DNA of 64,000 nucleotides from Chitinophaga sancti (lineage in GTDB: Bacteria; Bacteroidota; Bacteroidia; Chitinophagales; Chitinophagaceae): the NCBI RefSeq assembly GCF_034087045.1, contig NZ_CP139247.1, positions 4,552,001 through 4,616,000 of the forward strand. The letters run 5' to 3'. The notes below the pieces were generated by a model. The model was not told where the DNA came from, ran no database searches, and saw only the letters and a program-made list of their open reading frames with translations. A program made the translations under genes and the position numbers. Positions 12,233-37,878 of the stretch are shown here, piece by piece (positions within the stretch are counted from its first letter, which is position 1; each line of letters begins with the position of its first letter).

Positions 12233-14617
12233 ATGAAAAACTGGACACTTTTCCTGGCAGCCGCCTACTGGCTCTCCGCCTGTACAAGCCCAGGACCGGC
12301 AAAAGATCAACAATCAGATTCCACGGCCATGAGAAAAAAACTCGGCCCATCCCCCGTACTGGATGCTACTACTGCTATCTCACACATGCAGGTGGAAAAG
12401 GGACTCGAAGTACAACTCGTAGCGTCGGAACCGTTGATCACAACACCGGTAGCTATGACCTTCGATGACAAAGGGCGTATGTGGGTAGTCGAAATGATGG
12501 GATATATGCCCGATACCGTAGGTACGGGTGAGGATGTGCCCAACGGCAAAGTGGTGATCTTAGAAGATACTACCCATGACGGAATTGCCGACACCCGCAA
12601 AGTACTCTTGGACTCGTTGATCCTGCCTCGTGCTATCTGTCTTGTTCCCGGTGGCTTTCTGCTGGCCGAACCACCCAAACTCTGGTTCGTCCCGGTCAAA
12701 AACGACATCGCCGGCAAGCGCGTCCTGATCGATGACAAATACACCGAAGGTGGCAACGTTGAGCACCAGCCAAATGGCCTGCTCCGCGCTATGGACAACT
12801 GGATCTACAATGCAAAATCAGATAAACGCTACCGCCAGATCAATGGCAAATGGGTGAAACAGGATACCCACTTCCGTGGTCAGTGGGGGGTGAGCCAGGA
12901 TAACTTTGGACGTCTTTTCTCTAACAATAACTCGGAAAACGTACTCGGCGATTACTTTCCACCCGGACTTGGCGCCCGCAATCCTAACCAGAAAACAATT
13001 GCTGGTTACGACGAGAAGATCGTGCCCGACAACCGGGTCTATCCCATTCACCCGACACCCGGCGTGAACCGTGGCTATATGAAAGGGATCCTCGACGATA
13101 GTCTACGCCTGGTGGAAATGACCGCTGCCTGTAGTCCCCTCGTTTACAGGGGTAGTCTCTTAGGCAAGGAATACGACAACAACATCTTTGTCGCTGAGCC
13201 CTGCGGTAACCTGATCAAACGCAACATCATCCAGGATAGCGGCTATATTGTAAAAGGTCGGCAGGCCTACCAGAAAAAGGAATTCCTCGCCAGCGATGAT
13301 GAGCGTTTCCGCCCGGTAAGTCTCTACGACGCTCCCGATGGCGCCCTTTATATCGTCGATATGTACCGTGGCATCATCCAGCATAAAACATACCTGACGC
13401 CGTATCTCAAAGACGAGATCAAAAGCCGGAACCTCACCAACCCACTCAATTGTGGTCGTATCTACCGCATTGTCCCTGCCGGCGCCAAAATGAAGCCGAT
13501 GGCACTGGACAATAATCCTGACAAGCTCTTTGCGCTGTTAGAGAATCCCAACGGTTGGATCAGGGATAAGGCACAACAGATGATCGTTGATCATCGTTAT
13601 ACCCAGCTCATTCCACATTTAAAAGAACGCCTGCATCAGGAAGGGAATACCTACGGCGCTATTCATGCTTTATGGACACTGGAAGGTTTAGGAGCGTTAT
13701 CATATAATGAAATTGATTTCCTGCTACACCAGAAAAATCCTTATCTGCAGGCCGCAGCAATTTCCGCGCTGCCATCGGTAAAATCTCCTGGAGCGATTGC
13801 TGCTTTAAGATCTGGTCCGGCTACCACCGCTATAGCATCTCCTGGAGCGACTACTGCATTGAGATCTGGTTCAGCTACCACCACTTTAATATCTAATGAA
13901 GTTGCTACCACTTTAGCACCTCCCGCAGCTACCGCTACCTTAACATCGTTAGAGAATAATGTATTCCTCGCGCCATACATCGCGTTGGTGTTGCCTTACC
14001 TCCCTAACAGTTCCGACCTGCAAACAAAACTAATGACCCACTATGCAAACGACCGTTATGTAGCAGATGCGATCATCAATAATAACAGCGGCAAAGAATC
14101 CCAACTCTTATCTCAACTAATAAAAATAAATCCTGATACCACCCTTGCCATGCGTCGTCATCTCGAAGCCATCATCAAAGATATCGAGACACATCGCAAA
14201 GCAAAGATCACCGACGCCCTTGTCAAAGAATACCCAAAAGGCGCCAAACTTTTCGCCAATATCTGCCAGACCTGCCACGGAAAAGATGGAGAAGGTATCA
14301 AATCACTCGCCCCTCCGCTCAACCAGTCGCAGCTCGTTACCGGCGATAAGAAACGACTGATTTCCATAGTGTTATATGGCCTTACCGGACCTATTGATGT
14401 AAATGGAAAACACTACAAAGCGCCCGAAATCAGTGCCGATATGCCCGGCATAGGTAGCAATGACGAATTCAATGATCAGGACATCGCCGAAGTGCTTAGC
14501 TTCATCAGAAATTGTTGGAGTAACCAGGCACCGAAGGTAACGGAGAAGGATATACAGGAGGTAAGGAAGAAGTATAAAGGCAGACAAAAGCCGTTCACCA
14601 TAGAAGAGCTGAACTAA
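12233..14617 (+). CDS. Lipoprotein with sorbosone-dehydrogenase-like propeller, HEAT-like region and cytochrome c domain
   Basis: A 794-residue fusion. A lipoprotein signal ends in the lipobox LSAC (Cys17). Residues 50-420 resemble the beta-propeller of PVC-type membrane-bound dehydrogenases (DUF7133; VEKGLEVQLVASEPLITTPVAMTFDDKGRMWV near 62-90). Residues 430-640 are helical and HEAT-like. The C-terminus is a class I cytochrome c with CQTCH at 678-682 and a likely distal Met in ADMPGIG. Such proteins probably oxidise sugars or polyols at the outer membrane and pass electrons to the haem; the substrate is unknown. A three-unit, 18-residue tandem repeat interrupts the HEAT-like region. Family level is fairly sure, reaction is not. 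Confidence 0.85.
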   Translation: MKNWTLFLAAAYWLSACTSPGPAKDQQSDSTAMRKKLGPSPVLDATTAISHMQVEKGLEVQLVASEPLITTPVAMTFDDKGRMWVVEMMGYMPDTVGTGEDVPNGKVVILEDTTHDGIADTRKVLLDSLILPRAICLVPGGFLLAEPPKLWFVPVKNDIAGKRVLIDDKYTEGGNVEHQPNGLLRAMDNWIYNAKSDKRYRQINGKWVKQDTHFRGQWGVSQDNFGRLFSNNNSENVLGDYFPPGLGARNPNQKTIAGYDEKIVPDNRVYPIHPTPGVNRGYMKGILDDSLRLVEMTAACSPLVYRGSLLGKEYDNNIFVAEPCGNLIKRNIIQDSGYIVKGRQAYQKKEFLASDDERFRPVSLYDAPDGALYIVDMYRGIIQHKTYLTPYLKDEIKSRNLTNPLNCGRIYRIVPAGAKMKPMALDNNPDKLFALLENPNGWIRDKAQQMIVDHRYTQLIPHLKERLHQEGNTYGAIHALWTLEGLGALSYNEIDFLLHQKNPYLQAAAISALPSVKSPGAIAALRSGPATTAIASPGATTALRSGSATTTLISNEVATTLAPPAATATLTSLENNVFLAPYIALVLPYLPNSSDLQTKLMTHYANDRYVADAIINNNSGKESQLLSQLIKINPDTTLAMRRHLEAIIKDIETHRKAKITDALVKEYPKGAKLFANICQTCHGKDGEGIKSLAPPLNQSQLVTGDKKRLISIVLYGLTGPIDVNGKHYKAPEISADMPGIGSNDEFNDQDIAEVLSFIRNCWSNQAPKVTEKDIQEVRKKYKGRQKPFTIEELN
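13784..13945 (+). repeat. In-frame 54-bp tandem repeat inside the dehydrogenase/cytochrome gene
   Basis: Three 54-bp units begin at 13784, 13838 and 13892. The first two are close copies and the third is degenerate. They encode SPGAIAALRSGPATTAIA, SPGATTALRSGSATTTLI and a weaker version starting SNEVATTLAPP. The Ala/Thr/Ser-rich insert looks like a recent expansion in a linker of the HEAT-like region. Confidence 0.85.
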
Positions 14618-14690
14618 GCATTAAAGAGCTAAACTAAAATAAGCTAAGCTGAACTAAGCAATAAAGAACTAAACTAAGCATAGAATATCT
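14608..14690. repeat. 40-bp direct repeat spanning the stop codon
   Basis: GCTGAACTAAGCA occurs at 14608 and 14648, each followed by a similar AxTAAAGAxCTAAACTAA stretch. The first copy contains the TAA stop (14615-14617) of the upstream gene, so the repeat arose from the 3' end of the coding sequence. Shorter AACTAA-like fragments continue to about 14690. Confidence 0.75.
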
Positions 14691-14706
14691 AAACTATCTA
14701 TCTCTG

Positions 14707-32419: not shown

Positions 32420-32701
32420 ATGGACAGGTTACGATTCTTTTTAAAACTGGCTTTTATCTGCAACCTGTTTTTCGTGCTTGCTGAGGTGTCCCGATACCTT
32501 GATATAAAGGATAATTTTGGCGAATTATTGAAATTCGTGCTGCCGATGGGGATGTTTGTGGCGTTTCCGCTGAATCTGATCACTTTGATCATCGCGGTTA
32601 TTATGCTGGTCAGACATAAGCTGAGCGTGGCCCAGCTGCCACCGTTCGTATTTATTATAAATCTTCTTATCTTACTTCTTCAATTCTACTTCCTTTTCTG
32701 A
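32420..32701 (+). CDS. Small three-helix membrane protein
   Basis: A 93-residue protein that is almost entirely hydrophobic, with three likely transmembrane helices (residues 8-25, 37-62, 70-92). No family is recognised. Its TGA stop overlaps the ATG of the next gene (TGATG), which means translational coupling. It may assist the queuosine-precursor transporter or simply share its mRNA. Confidence 0.72.
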   Translation: MDRLRFFLKLAFICNLFFVLAEVSRYLDIKDNFGELLKFVLPMGMFVAFPLNLITLIIAVIMLVRHKLSVAQLPPFVFIINLLILLLQFYFLF

Positions 32702-33483
32702 TGATAAACAATTTACTGAAAGATAAGCCGACGAAACTATTCCTGATCTTCTGTAGTTTCTTCGTGGCGAATGCATTGATAGCTGAGTGTATAGGTGGTA
32801 AGATCTTCTCTCTTGAGAGGCTTTTAGGCCTGCCGGTGCATACCTTCACAATTTTCGGGTATCCCGGGTTGTCATTCAATCTTACCTGTGGGGTGTTGTT
32901 ATGGCCATTAGAGTTTGTGCTGACGGATGTGGTGAATGAGTATTTCGGGCCTAAGGCCGTAAGAAGGATCTCTTATATTGCTGTGGGGCTAATTTCTTAT
33001 GCTTTCCTCATGTTTTATATCGCGATCAAGGTGCCGCCGGCTGACTGGTGGCTGGGTTCCAGCGCACAGGATGGGGTACCGAATATGCAGGATGCATTTG
33101 GAAGTATATTCGGTCAGGGCATGTGGATCATCTTTGCGAGTATCATGGCGTTTTTGGTGAGCCAGATTGTGGATGTGACGGTGTTTCATCGTATTAAGAG
33201 AGCCACAGGGGAGAAACATGTGTGGCTGAGGGCTACGGGATCTACTATAATTAGTCAGCTGGTGGATAGTTTTATCGTATTATTTATAGCTTTTAAAATA
33301 GGGAAAGACTGGAGCTGGCAGCAGGTGTTGGCGATTTGTGTGGTGAATTATACGTATAAATTTGTTATGGCGATTGCGCTAACCCCGTTAATTTACTTTT
33401 TAGAGGGACGGGTGGAAAAATATTTGGGCAAGGAGACGACGGTCAGGATGAAGGCGGCTGCTATGGGGAAGGAAGAGGCATAA
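32701..33483 (+). CDS. Queuosine precursor transporter (YhhQ/VUT family)
   Basis: A 260-residue protein with six to seven helices and family landmarks: FVANALIAECIGGKIF near 20-35, WPLEFVLTDVVNEYFGPKAVRRISY near 70-95, and SQLVDSFIVLFIAFKIG near 190. YhhQ imports queuosine precursors such as preQ0 or preQ1 used for tRNA modification. It is coupled to the small membrane protein upstream. No que or tgt gene is nearby, so this rests on family similarity. Confidence 0.9.
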   Translation: MINNLLKDKPTKLFLIFCSFFVANALIAECIGGKIFSLERLLGLPVHTFTIFGYPGLSFNLTCGVLLWPLEFVLTDVVNEYFGPKAVRRISYIAVGLISYAFLMFYIAIKVPPADWWLGSSAQDGVPNMQDAFGSIFGQGMWIIFASIMAFLVSQIVDVTVFHRIKRATGEKHVWLRATGSTIISQLVDSFIVLFIAFKIGKDWSWQQVLAICVVNYTYKFVMAIALTPLIYFLEGRVEKYLGKETTVRMKAAAMGKEEA

Positions 33484-33485
33484 GG

Positions 33486-33590
33486 GAAGAGGAATAAGGA
33501 AATGTGATAAGGAAACGGGAATGAGGGAATAGATGTAAGTGAAGAGGTATAAAGAAATGTGTCAAGGAAATGGGATTAAGGAAAGGGGCG
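33486..33590. repeat. Purine-rich 55-bp degenerate tandem repeat
   Basis: GAAGAGGAATAAGGAAATGT at 33486 recurs as GAAGAGGTATAAAGAAATGT at 33541, each followed by a purine-rich AAGGAAA-GGGA stretch. It lies just after the stop of the queuosine transporter. The AAGG/GGAA words suggest origin by local slippage. Confidence 0.7.
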
Positions 33591-34363: not shown

Positions 34364-34828
34364 TCACCTAATATTTACCAACGCAACATCGAAGCTACAC
34401 CTAAGGCTGCCCCCCTCCACCTGCCGCTCATCTGCATCCGGCTGCTCATCCGGCAGGTAATTGATCACTACATCCGCGCCTTCGCGCGCATACGCAATCG
34501 CCGCCGCTGGGCCCATCCCGGAATCCCCACCAGTAATCAATGCTTTACGGCCTGCCAGTCTGCCACTTCCTTTATATGACGCCTCCCCATGATCCGGTTT
34601 CGGTATCATCTTCGAAGCCAATGCCGGCCATGGCTGTGACTGCGGTTGAAAAGTAGGCTTAGGGTATTTATTGAGCGGATTTTCCAATCCGGTAGCATGA
34701 TTATTCGCCACAGAAGGTGCTGAAGGCATAGAACCTGACCTGGAGATTACCGGACTGACGGCCATAGCAGCAATGCTGGCGCCCAGTCCGGTTGCCATCT
34801 GCCTGCGCGTGTAATTATTCTGATTCAT
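34364..34828 (-). pseudogene. Truncated short-chain dehydrogenase with twin-arginine leader
   Basis: The frame encodes a leader with twin arginine (TRRQMATGLGASIAAMAV), the linker PKPDHGEASYKGSGRLAGRKA and the start of a Rossmann fold (ALITGGDSGMGPAAAIAYAREGADVVINYL), as in YghA-like SDR oxidoreductases of about 300 or more residues. Family similarity stops at DEQPDADE (about 34427). The next 20 codons are unrelated, then a stop. The catalytic Ser-Tyr-Lys region is absent, so no dehydrogenase activity is possible. The missing part is not found in the following 700 bases. Confidence 0.85.
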
Positions 34829-34952: not shown

Positions 34953-35891
34953 CTAAAACCATTTCTTCTTCATAAAGTACCAACTGATGATCACCGAAAT
35001 AATAATCGAAATCATCACCGGTATATAAAACGCATGTGCATTCCGCTGAAACGGAATATCCACATTCATCCCATAAATACTCGCAACCAGCATAGGAAAC
35101 GTCAGCACGATCGTAATCGAAGTCAGCCGTTTCATCACAATATTCAGGTTATTCGAAATGATACTTGCAAATGCATCCATAGAACTACCCATGATATTCG
35201 TATATACATTCGCCATTTCAAGGGCCTGGGAAGTATCTACGATCAGGTCATGCAGGAACTCCTTTTCATCTTCATTCAACCCGAGAATGTTGGTTCGCTC
35301 AAGTTTCATGAGCAACAACTCATTGCTCCGCAGTGCTGTCACAAAGTACACTAGGCTTTTCTGAATCCGCATGATGTACAGCAGCTCCTCATTTCGGTTA
35401 CTGTCGTAGAGTTTCTGTTCTAATACATTTCTGCGCTGGTTGATCTCTTTCAGGTAGTCGAGGAAGTTCATAACTACTTTCTCAAAGATCTTCAGCACCA
35501 TCATATTCCGCTTTTCAGGATGACGGTTATGGAAGGTGTTGAGGAACTTATTGATGGCAGCGTTGTCGAAAGAATTGACTGTCAGGATCTGGTTATGCGT
35601 CAGAATGATCACAATTGGAATCGTGATATAATAAGCATCGCTTTCATTGAAAGAATTGTTCTCCGTCGGGGTTTTGATAACGATGAGTTTCACATTATCC
35701 TCAATCTCATAGCGGGACCTTTCATCAATATCCAGGGAGTCGGTGAGGAAGTCGAGCGGGATATCCAGCTCTTCAGAGAGCTGTTCAAACTCGGCCTGCT
35801 TTAGGGGAGGGGTAATATTCACCCATACTCCGTTTTCAGGGGTTTTAATCTCAACTGTCCGTGCGTCTATATTTTTGAAGTATTGGATCAT
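34953..35891 (-). CDS. corA: CorA-type magnesium/cobalt channel
   Basis: A 312-residue protein with a soluble alpha/beta N-terminal domain, a long stalk helix near 150-245, two C-terminal helices and the signature Y-G274-M-N between them (SIYGMNVDIPF). The basic C-terminus MKKKWF is typical. It forms a pentameric channel for Mg2+ uptake in the inner membrane. It is a single gene with its own terminator. Confidence 0.94.
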   Translation of the reverse strand: MIQYFKNIDARTVEIKTPENGVWVNITPPLKQAEFEQLSEELDIPLDFLTDSLDIDERSRYEIEDNVKLIVIKTPTENNSFNESDAYYITIPIVIILTHNQILTVNSFDNAAINKFLNTFHNRHPEKRNMMVLKIFEKVVMNFLDYLKEINQRRNVLEQKLYDSNRNEELLYIMRIQKSLVYFVTALRSNELLLMKLERTNILGLNEDEKEFLHDLIVDTSQALEMANVYTNIMGSSMDAFASIISNNLNIVMKRLTSITIVLTFPMLVASIYGMNVDIPFQRNAHAFYIPVMISIIISVIISWYFMKKKWF

Positions 35892-35939
35892 CCGGGCGCA
35901 AAGGTAGAATAATTAGTAAGAAAGCATATTGCTTAATTA

Positions 35940-36876
35940 TTAATTAACAGCGTGCTCTGCCAGACGGGCGGTTTTGTGGCGGGTCAAAAATCGCGGGTAT
36001 CGGATTTTGCGGGCGGGTATGGATGGTGGGTTTATTTGTGGGAGGGTGGTGGTTTCTTTTAGAATAACGGATAGCGGAACGATACATTCAGCGATGGTAA
36101 GCGCCTTTTCTTCTAAAAAGGAATTGAGCGGAAGGGTGTTTTCAAGTATTGAAGTTGTTACGGCAAACGAAGTTTGCGGTCCCTTGCCTCCGGATATTGC
36201 AGTCTCCTCCAAAATCGCCGGCAGCGAAACCATACATTCGTTCAAACTCAACGTACTCTCCTTTAGCATTGCCACCGTAGAACCTGTCAAACTTAGTGAA
36301 CTTTCCTTTAGCATTTCCTCTGCAGGCCCTGTCAAACTCAACGTACTTTCCTCTAGCATTTCCTCTGTAGACCCTGTCAAACTTAGTGAACTTTCCTTTG
36401 GCATTTCCTCTGTAGACCCTGTCAAACTCACCGTACTCTCCTTTATCATTTGCTCTGCAGCCCCTGTCAAACTCACCGTACTCTCCTTTATCATTTCCTC
36501 TGTAGCCCCTGTCAAACTCACCGAACTTTCCTTTATCATTTCCTCTGTAGCCCCTGTCAAACTCAATACCGGTTCCCCCAATAACAACGAAGGTTCCCAC
36601 ACCCACGGCACCAATACCGTACACCCATATGTCCCTCTTACAGGACGTAACTCCCTCTCCCTCAAAGCCGCAGGCATCAACACAACACATTCAGCCTCTT
36701 CCTTCTTTAAACCCAAAGGCTGCAACACCGCACATCCTGATATTCCACCCACCCGGTACAACGACCGCTTTTCCAATACTGAAGGCAACAGCACACTACA
36801 CCCGGCTATCTCACATAGTCGAATCATAGATCTCTCTTTCAAAAACAAAGGTAAAAGTACCGTACAACCAGCTACT
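35940..36876. repeat. Degenerate tandem array downstream of dapF (66-bp and 45-bp units)
   Basis: Units of exactly 66 bp are seen next to dapF (equivalent GG positions at 36784, 36850 and 36916, the last inside dapF). They pass into 48-, 63- and 66-bp units, then a block of 45-bp units. The word [GT]TCAAACT occurs at 36241, 36286, 36331, 36376, 36421, 36466, 36511 and 36556, exactly 45 apart. Weaker long units resume to about 36050. All spacings are multiples of three. The unit closest to dapF resembles the last 66 bases of dapF itself. Nothing else is in this 940-base stretch. Confidence 0.9.
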
Positions 36877-36995
36877 TTATTTAGCCGGTATATCGATCTC
36901 TCCTTCAAATACAAGGGTAGCAGGACCACACAACCAGATGTCTTCATAAGCTCGTTCGCCGGTTTTGGTAAAACGTACTTCCAGTCCACCGCCAA
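35940..36995 (-). CDS. Candidate repeat protein read from the dapF-derived array, overlapping dapF
   Basis: A 351-codon frame starts inside dapF in a different frame (118-base overlap) and runs through the whole array. It encodes units like GC-x-VLLP-x2-LKERS-x2-RL (22 residues), repeated about four times, then seven 15-residue units SLTGATEEMIKESSV and variants, then two more ECxVxLP units. There is no signal peptide and no known domain. The opposite strand is also open for 427 codons, because all units are multiples of three, so openness alone is weak evidence. It may be a new gene born from repeat growth, or non-coding. Confidence 0.3.
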   Translation of the reverse strand: MAVDWKYVLPKPANELMKTSGCVVLLPLYLKERSIYRLNKVAGCTVLLPLFLKERSMIRLCEIAGCSVLLPSVLEKRSLYRVGGISGCAVLQPLGLKKEEAECVVLMPAALRERELRPVRGTYGCTVLVPWVWEPSLLLGEPVLSLTGATEEMIKESSVSLTGATEEMIKESTVSLTGAAEQMIKESTVSLTGSTEEMPKESSLSLTGSTEEMLEESTLSLTGPAEEMLKESSLSLTGSTVAMLKESTLSLNECMVSLPAILEETAISGGKGPQTSFAVTTSILENTLPLNSFLEEKALTIAECIVPLSVILKETTTLPQINPPSIPARKIRYPRFLTRHKTARLAEHAVN

Positions 36996-37668
36996 GGGTC
37001 TGAACAGGAACGGTATAAGTCTTCTCTTCCGTGCCGGAAGTCATCAGCGCAGCGGCAGTAACGCCAGTTCCGCACGAGTAGGTTTCATCTTCCACACCTC
37101 TTTCATAAGTACGAACAAAAATGCCATTATCAATAGGCTGAACAAAATTTACATTCGTTCCCACCGCTTTAAAACGCTCATTATAGCGGATCTGTCTGCC
37201 TTCTTCAAATACATCCAGGGCTTTCACATCCTCCACGAACTTTACAAAGTGTGGTGAACCGGTATTCAGGTAAAAATAAAGATTACCTACTTCCACGCCA
37301 TTCACATCCTGCATTTTCAGGTTTACCCAATCAGTACCTTTCATGGTCGCTTCATGCGGACCGTCAATAGCTATAAATCTCAGCACTTCGCTATCTAATC
37401 CCATTTTACGGGCAAAAGCCACCAGGCAACGGCCCCCATTGCCACACATGCTACTTTCCCGGCCGTCAGCATTGTAATACTTCATACCAAAGTCATAGCC
37501 TTCCTGCCTGTTCAATAGCATCAAACCATCTGCACCGATGCCAAAGCGGCGGTCACAGAGAAAATGCACCTGTTCTTCAGTGAGAAAATCATATTGGCCA
37601 TTGCGATTGTCCATAATGACGAAGTCATTGCCGGTCCCCTGGTATTTGTAAAAATGTATTGCTGACAT
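36877..37668 (-). CDS. dapF: Diaminopimelate epimerase
   Basis: A 263-residue enzyme with both catalytic cysteines: Cys75 in SSMCGNGGRC and Cys199 in TYSCGTGV. It begins FYKYQGTGNDFVIMDN, the usual DapF start. It turns LL- into meso-diaminopimelate for lysine and peptidoglycan synthesis. The length is normal and the enzyme looks intact, even though its 3' end seeds a repeat array and its 5' flank carries an 87-bp duplication. The predicted transcription start almost touches the ATG, so the mRNA may be nearly leaderless. Confidence 0.96.
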   Translation of the reverse strand: MSAIHFYKYQGTGNDFVIMDNRNGQYDFLTEEQVHFLCDRRFGIGADGLMLLNRQEGYDFGMKYYNADGRESSMCGNGGRCLVAFARKMGLDSEVLRFIAIDGPHEATMKGTDWVNLKMQDVNGVEVGNLYFYLNTGSPHFVKFVEDVKALDVFEEGRQIRYNERFKAVGTNVNFVQPIDNGIFVRTYERGVEDETYSCGTGVTAAALMTSGTEEKTYTVPVQTLGGGLEVRFTKTGERAYEDIWLCGPATLVFEGEIDIPAK

Positions 37669-37675
37669 AATAAAG

Positions 37676-37706
37676 CAAATGTAATCATATTGAAGATATT
37701 ATACAA
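37676..37706 (-). promoter_or_regulatory. dapF promoter (TTG-N20-TACATTTG)
   Basis: The minus strand has TTG (37706-37704), 20 bases, then TACATTTG (37683-37676), the same geometry as the fabV promoter. The -7 element ends only 7 bases before the dapF ATG. The -33 TTG lies in the first unit of the 87-bp repeat. Confidence 0.75.
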
Positions 37707-37878
37707 CCATCCGGTAAGCACAGGTATAGCAGTCCATCCGGTATTCATGCCTACATTCGGTAGATGTACAAAATGGTACTACAGCACTTGTAACCATCTG
37801 GTAAGCATAGGTATAGCAGTCCATCCGGTATTCATGCCTACATTCGGTAGATGTACAAAATGGTACAACAGCACTGAA
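37705..37878. repeat. 87-bp tandem duplication upstream of dapF
   Basis: Two copies start at 37705 and 37792 and differ at only a few bases. The word GGTATAGCAGTCCATCCGGT is shared. On the plus strand each copy encodes IAVHPVFMPTFGR, whose HP-x4-T pattern recalls the plus-strand translation of the array on the other side of dapF (NTAHPDIPPTR, STLHPAISHSR), so both arrays may belong to one family. Confidence 0.88.

Follow-up and report, generated by a model that had tools for sequence, protein, structure and literature searches.

In 1984, Ohno reportedly proposed that a new protein can arise when a coding sequence with internal repeats is read in an alternative frame. The dapF locus of Chitinophaga sancti resembles that idea in having a repeat length that keeps a second frame open, from which a new protein would be made, and differs from it in that the repeats appear to have been made downstream of the old gene, with dapF left intact. 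Overprinted bacterial genes are already known; the dapF case would be a young protein-coding gene, with a function that we infer.

The nearest described case is the young orphan gene nog1 of Escherichia coli O157:H7, which overprints citC and has expression and phenotype data, in the excerpted account of PMC4683798. The dapF-tail gene would likewise overprint an older bacterial gene and is lineage restricted. On the same partial account (PMC4683798), however, nog1 lies wholly within citC in the -2 frame, whereas here the overlap is about 71 nt and the body would derive from tandem copies of the overprinted tail; the dapF-tail gene, unlike nog1, is known here from sequence alone. In E. coli, point mutation within yaaW gave rise to htgA, in phase 123/213 (PMC2268670). 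That pair resembles ours in the proposed overprinting and in an older gene that would change more slowly where it is overlapped, but its abstract-level account comes without repeat expansion, unlike the dapF array (PMC2268670). Mycobacterial MIRU/VNTR loci are also intergenic tandem repeats whose copy number varies between isolates; MIRUs are scattered widely and appear mobile (PMC2734929 and PMC12548453, in the parts available), whereas the dapF array stems from its own neighbour gene. Frame-shifted repeats have been discussed as a source of new protein states (PMC12871928, in part). Among the papers listed by our literature searches, from which most subscription papers were absent, none deals with the dapF-tail gene or with a gene that arose when an overprinted tail was amplified in tandem.

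We analyzed a 64,000-nucleotide stretch of the C. sancti genome, called the window below. We put the probability at roughly 80% that the repeats following dapF form a protein-coding gene specific to this clade, one that arose de novo through overprinting combined with tandem duplication. A common ancestor of five Chitinophaga species would have copied the final 66 bp of dapF in tandem into the short gap before a corA-like gene. In the +1 frame, these copies would have read as an open, Cys-containing repeat, which then presumably grew longer without losing its frame and was refined by selection. Amplification of a 45-bp unit would have come later, in one sub-clade. Initiation probably occurs inside dapF, at the ATG at 36947, and the gene is probably cotranscribed with dapF. 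The product would be a soluble protein whose conserved, working part is a basic motif at the C terminus, with the middle repeats as a variable spacer.

The dapF locus, its carriers, and a candidate start

The dapF gene (diaminopimelate epimerase, 263 aa) lies at 36877-37668 on the reverse strand, based on the ORF list and a Pfam match to PF01678 DAP_epimerase (E 5.6e-41). Its 3' end both seeds the array and overlaps the new frame. The sequence-only reading had described a 351-aa ORF at 35940-36995 (-) overlapping dapF, and this ORF exists as described; it is the longest form of the new frame, starting from a TTG inside dapF. From the ATG, the putative gene occupies 35940-36947 (-), in the +1 frame relative to dapF, and would encode 335 aa, end with a TAA at 35940-35942, and overlap dapF by 71 nt. 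A 48-nt spacer (35892-35939, -), equal in length in the window, G014, and ATCC 35208, separates it from a 312-aa gene in the ORF list (34953-35891, -) that we take to be corA-like. The spacer contains ATTATTCTACCTTTGCG, which also precedes the corA-like gene in four non-carriers (L037, L039, L043, and L044). The corA-like gene is adjacent to dapF in non-carriers and appears to be its ancestral downstream neighbour. Farther along the same strand, a 154-aa ORF at 34364-34828 ends early and is perhaps a broken gene; we take it to resemble the front of an SDR-type oxidoreductase.

The gene was found in 5 of 79 genus genomes, always at dapF: the window's C. sancti genome (G000, or W), G014, [Flexibacter] sp. 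ATCC 35208 (G086), C. silvisoli (G031), and G081. These carriers form one branch of a 63-row dapF tree with support of 100/100; dapF itself was found in 58 of 59 relatives and in all 24 further genus members searched. A profile built on the alternative-frame protein matched 7 of the 79 genomes at E 0.01, five at dapF and two (G028 and G032) elsewhere, at E 0.007. A wider profile again matched seven, the same five carriers with weak additions in G035 and G013. These two, which lie away from dapF, we took as chance matches; their translations have stops in the matching frame, and in G035 (locus L158) the site is antisense to a long ORF. In the family sample, with no more than five candidates scored per genome, the window's own genome was the 1 of 394 that matched.

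We surveyed the gap following dapF at 38 loci (L032-L069), 29 of which have the corA-like gene in reach, 27 of these being non-carriers. The gap is 21-149 nt in 26 of the non-carriers and 1653 nt in one. At the 13 nearest non-carrier loci, which fall together with the carriers on a larger branch of the dapF tree, it is 27 nt in nine, 30 nt in one, and 47-102 nt in three. Carriers have gaps of 0.5-1.0 kb (985 nt in the window, 1039 in G014, 862 and 590 in the two carriers among the 38 loci, and about 505 in G081). Among the frames listed as leaving dapF at these 38 loci, no such repeat occurs outside the two carriers, and frames of at least 900 nt continue into the next gene. The gene is restricted to its lineage, being absent from outgroups at the same site.

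The open frame begins inside dapF in all five carriers, and the case for initiation there rests on start-codon positions and synonymous patterns. An ATG at offset 721 (36947) is present in four of the five; C. silvisoli lacks it and has a GTG six bases upstream. In the window there is no in-frame ATG, GTG, or TTG between offsets 760 and 820. The codons for GCTV (offsets 799-810) are conserved, with carriers varying there by synonymous changes only, and they precede the first start after dapF (820 in the window); a start inside dapF is therefore suggested, and the ATG at 36947 is the best candidate we can infer. Synonymous differences in dapF codons 241-263 are fewer than in the rest of the gene among four carriers (18/120, 0.15, versus 431/1319, 0.33), and the same comparison in 36 non-carriers gives 5075/9339 (0.54) in the tail versus 53952/119000 (0.45) in the rest. 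On the four-carrier tree, 5 of 19 tail codons changed versus 114 of 213 (p 0.02), yet 13 of 195 body windows are equally low, and codons 1-40 of carrier dapF are low as well (41/220, 0.19), so that the apparent deficit in the tail is modest. More than 80% of overlapping gene pairs share less than 30 bp, in the part of a review available (PMC12548453), which would make a 71-nt overlap a long one.

It is unlikely, in our estimate, that the frame is instead translated through a +1 shift that lengthens DapF, or from a start codon immediately past the dapF stop. The nucleotides ACCGGCTAAATAA around that stop are identical in carriers, the ATG is missing in C. silvisoli, and starts lie farther on in frame: GTG at offset 808 in four of five carriers and some start codon at 826 in all five. 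The database versions that overlap this part also begin after dapF. The conserved GCTV codons speak against a later start, since they precede it and differ only synonymously, and no known +1 slip motif was recognised. All nine database homologs examined use the +1 frame and begin either past the end of dapF or deeper within the protein, so that annotation appears to shorten the protein.

For the gene read from within dapF, cotranscription with dapF is plausible. A sigma-70 scan of 35800-37000 gave one promoter-like site on the gene's strand, against an expected 1.5 for the two strands together; terminator-like sites were absent from that strand over the same interval. Sigma-70 scans fit Bacteroidota promoters badly.

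Frame conservation, selection, and the predicted protein

The sequence-only reading had the frame staying open, and in relatives it does: from the dapF stop to the gene end, the +1 frame has no stops in any of the five carriers. Over the same region the carriers have 7-9 stops in the dapF frame, dapF's own included, and 1-3 in the opposite-strand frame of a 427-aa ORF (35974-37257, +); in the window these are confined to the far end, so this frame too is mostly open. In the window, the array is also crossed by the 427-aa ORF and, in the dapF frame, by an ORF of 182 aa. Unit lengths divisible by three leave long stretches of two other frames open as well, and openness in one genome is weak evidence. 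Frameshifts in relatives had been named as a refuting result, and among the window, G014, and ATCC 35208 all gaps in the DNA alignment are multiples of three. In DNA-only alignments of the three distant pairs, some gaps are not (2 of 6 for C. silvisoli-G081, of 22 and 8, together 30; 2 of 4 for W-C. silvisoli; 2 of 7 for W-G081), with phase restored pairwise. In four of five carriers the +1 frame outscores the five other frames in codon usage, two opposite-strand frames being slightly higher in G081; its scores are intermediate (-0.05 to 0.12, where true genes average 0.22 and wrong frames -0.27).

A proposed comparison of synonymous and nonsynonymous change gave a divided answer, with a low dN/dS for C. 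silvisoli-G081 and values not clearly low in closer pairs. Over 142 codons of C. silvisoli-G081, in an alignment guided by the new protein itself, dN/dS is 0.133, the lowest of six frames, and changes at the three codon positions number 26/15/62. Aligned from DNA alone, this pair gives 32/25/58 (p 4e-4), and W-C. silvisoli gives 80/54/99 (p 1.4e-3). Whole-frame dN/dS is 0.55 for W-G014 and 0.59 for W-ATCC 35208, each still the lowest of six frames. Outside the array, the W-G014 pair has 9 synonymous and 14 nonsynonymous changes in the 5' block and 3 and 12 in the 3' block, where purifying selection is not visible. No third-position excess was found among copies within the 45-bp array. These patterns point to purifying selection on the new frame in one species pair, C. 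silvisoli-G081.

The predicted protein has 335, 353, 294, 197, and 175 aa in the five carriers and is laid out as six Cys repeats, a variable middle, and a basic C terminus. The six Cys residues, each starting a repeat in the Cys half (36600-36947, -), are invariant in the carriers. The last 60 residues have a pI of 9.9-11.5, and the highest 19-residue hydropathy is 1.55. A single-sequence homolog search returned 0 of 2677 candidates, and a first and a second family profile search, scoring 8000 and 7999 candidates, found 9 and 11 database proteins; the single name among those matched is a hypothetical protein of C. sancti. Nine of these proteins have in common the motif R-x-[IV]-RYPRFL-x-R, part of the conserved basic C-terminal segment RKIRYPRFLTRHK (35973-36011, -). 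Its R, RYPRFL, and R are invariant in all 14 alignment rows (5 carriers and 9 database proteins, with P0006 and P0007 nearly duplicating P0004 and P0005), and the RYPRFL codons differ only synonymously between carriers. Pfam gave a best E of 0.1, below the cut-off, NCBIfam no match for three proteins, and PDB a best E of 0.28; two AlphaFold predictions showed no fold, with mean pLDDT of 33 and 37. Our best guess is a soluble protein that binds a partner via the conserved basic C terminus.

An open frame could also be a passive by-product of stop-free units divisible by three, with no protein that matters, a reading we consider quite improbable. It would account for the two other frames that are open across the array in the window and for the weak or absent purifying selection in the W-G014 pair and the 45-bp array, and tandem arrays are common in this genome. 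It does not fit the dN/dS and third-position excess of C. silvisoli-G081, the +1 frame open in all five carriers, the invariant C-terminal motif, or the other gene-tail arrays, none of which (0 of 19) is open. The common frame and common protein ending suggest a gene kept by selection.

Source of the repeats

The unit adjoining dapF had been said to resemble the last 66 nt of dapF, and the likeness was recovered: at a lag of 66, 45 of the 66 positions agree; in 2000 shuffles, with the best of 40 lags taken each time, no more than 32 did. The source, unit 0, is the dapF tail itself (36876-36941, -), located by lag comparison, and it is followed by the 66-bp copies, units 1 and 2 (36744-36875, -). 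Unit 1 matches the tail at 45, 42, 42, 39, and 40 of 66 positions in the five carriers (shuffle maxima 32-35). Unit 2 matches unit 0 at 37 of 66 in the window; in C. silvisoli and G081 the likeness is gone (24 and 21 of 66). The alternative frame is still recognisable from unit 0 to unit 1, as TSGCVVLLPLYLKERSIYRLNK and VAGCTVLLPLFLKERSMIRLCE, while the dapF frame acquires stops.

Unit sizes of 66, 48, 63, and 45 bp had been listed, of which we recovered 66 and 45 and not 48 and 63; the recovered spacings are all multiples of three, as claimed. In the 5' half, with C45 left out, Cys-to-Cys spacings are 22, 22, 22, 15, and 22 residues (66, 66, 66, 45, and 66 bp), and 45-bp copies follow. These make up a variable array (36242-36565, -; TRF, 7.2 copies) of a 15-aa unit such as SLTGATEEMIKESTV. 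Copy number changes by whole units, with 7 in the window, 8 in G014, and 4 in ATCC 35208, and the array is absent in C. silvisoli and G081. Copies are more alike within a genome (85% in the window, 92% in G014) than between the two (78%), a sign of turnover. The database protein P0008 has one 45-bp-type unit, which fits a later expansion of that unit. A search of the window's own genome with 36200-36960 gave just two additional matches, one of 21 nt (E 0.24) and one of 23 nt (E 0.45); having no copies elsewhere in that genome, the array is not a MIRU-type dispersed repeat.

The gene might have come from elsewhere, as a pre-existing or imported repeat gene whose likeness to the dapF tail is due to chance or convergence. 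Its C-terminal part has no visible source, and unit 2 of two carriers has lost the likeness. That origin is very improbable, given that in each of the five carriers 39-45 of 66 positions match at a lag of precisely one unit, and that no other match occurs in the 394 family genomes, with up to five candidates scored in each.

The sequence-only reading had offered, beside gene birth by repeat expansion in an alternative frame, a non-coding structural array. As an RNA or DNA element, structural or regulatory, between dapF and the corA-like gene, this is highly improbable. Tandem repeats preceding a gene can go with its expression level, according to the available part of PMC2734929, and synonymous-site changes are few in the 3' block between the window and G014. 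However, the 45-bp array RNA folds worse than shuffles (z +3.08; every one of 100 shuffles did at least as well), Rfam has no match at E 1, and changes in distant pairs follow codon positions. Gene birth is the alternative that the data support, through a frame open in all five carriers and a dN/dS of 0.13 in one pair.

That the coding frame is the 427-aa one on the opposite strand, antisense to dapF, is barely credible: with no internal stop in the window, one each in G014 and ATCC 35208, and a C. silvisoli-G081 dN/dS of 0.30 it is mostly open, but it has two internal stops in both C. silvisoli and G081, its dN/dS exceeds that of the +1 frame in all three pairs computable for both (0.30 versus 0.13, 0.66 versus 0.55, 0.68 versus 0.59), as does its W-C. 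silvisoli pN (0.41 versus 0.36), and the database homologs are in the +1 frame.

Tandem arrays at other gene tails

Tandem arrays with a period of at least 10, mostly intergenic, were counted in five genomes. G000 has 88 over 1264 kb and G014 24 over 400 kb; G007 has 3 over 400 kb, G030 has 8 over 200 kb, and a 200-kb sample of G037 has 0. The densities are 70 per Mb in G000, 60 in G014, 40 in G030 (200 kb sampled), and 7.5 in G007; G030 shows that array density is not unique to carriers. Arrays touch a gene tail 27 times in G000 and 8 times in G014, and the period is a multiple of three in 8 of these 35.

Gene tails as a special target of duplication were considered and rejected, since in the TRF count for G000 27 of 88 arrays touch a tail versus 25.6 expected under random placement. 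Arrays touching a gene head number 2 of 88 versus 10.7 expected. Arrays spare gene heads and are not aimed at tails. By 48-nt comparison, the adjoining gap matches 14 of 550 tails versus 4 of 604 heads in G000, 19 of 756 versus 5 of 815 with G014 added, and 0 of 371 tails in G007, G030, and G037. At all 19 other tail matches in G000 and G014, both alternative frames are closed within 98 nt, while in the dapF carriers alternative-frame openness past the tail is 454-988 nt. Of 717 tails, 36 extend at least 457 nt; with six of them inspected, these are taken as mostly ordinary next genes. Tandem duplication thus supplies the material, and the dapF array stands out as open and conserved.

Other tandem arrays were also noted. 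Two in the window start in a gene tail: at 14599-14696 the last ~20 nt and stop of ORF 12233-14617 are repeated into the spacer, and at 33471-33588 the GGAAGAGGCATAA tail of ORF 32701-33483 is. Just upstream of dapF, at 37705-37875, there is a near-perfect 87-bp tandem duplication (2 copies, 96%), where the G014 and ATCC 35208 alignments overlap as if that site were single copy. At L176 (G000:C1 331665-333234), the tails of convergent genes share a 100-bp array that fills the 394-nt gap, with 402 of 407 positions identical at lag 100. At L206 (G000:C1 6136583-6137101), which has a 79-bp tail array, match coordinates make the region shorter than in G000 by 237 nt (three units) in ATCC 35208 and by about 270 nt in C. 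silvisoli, so that copy number varies between species.

A wider and tentative reading, about which we are more doubtful than convinced, is that this clade acts as a gene nursery: frequent tandem duplication between genes may go on copying tails into spacers, with most copies lost because their length is not divisible by three and rare in-frame copies captured as new proteins. If so, the dapF gene would be the first captured product seen, and others would exist in these genomes. For the new gene, its source in the dapF tail, the gap that probably preceded it (27-102 nt in the closest non-carriers), and the stages (66-bp and then 45-bp units) can be viewed side by side. The other tail arrays of the same genome would be its failed siblings, and the filter from duplication to gene may thereby become measurable.
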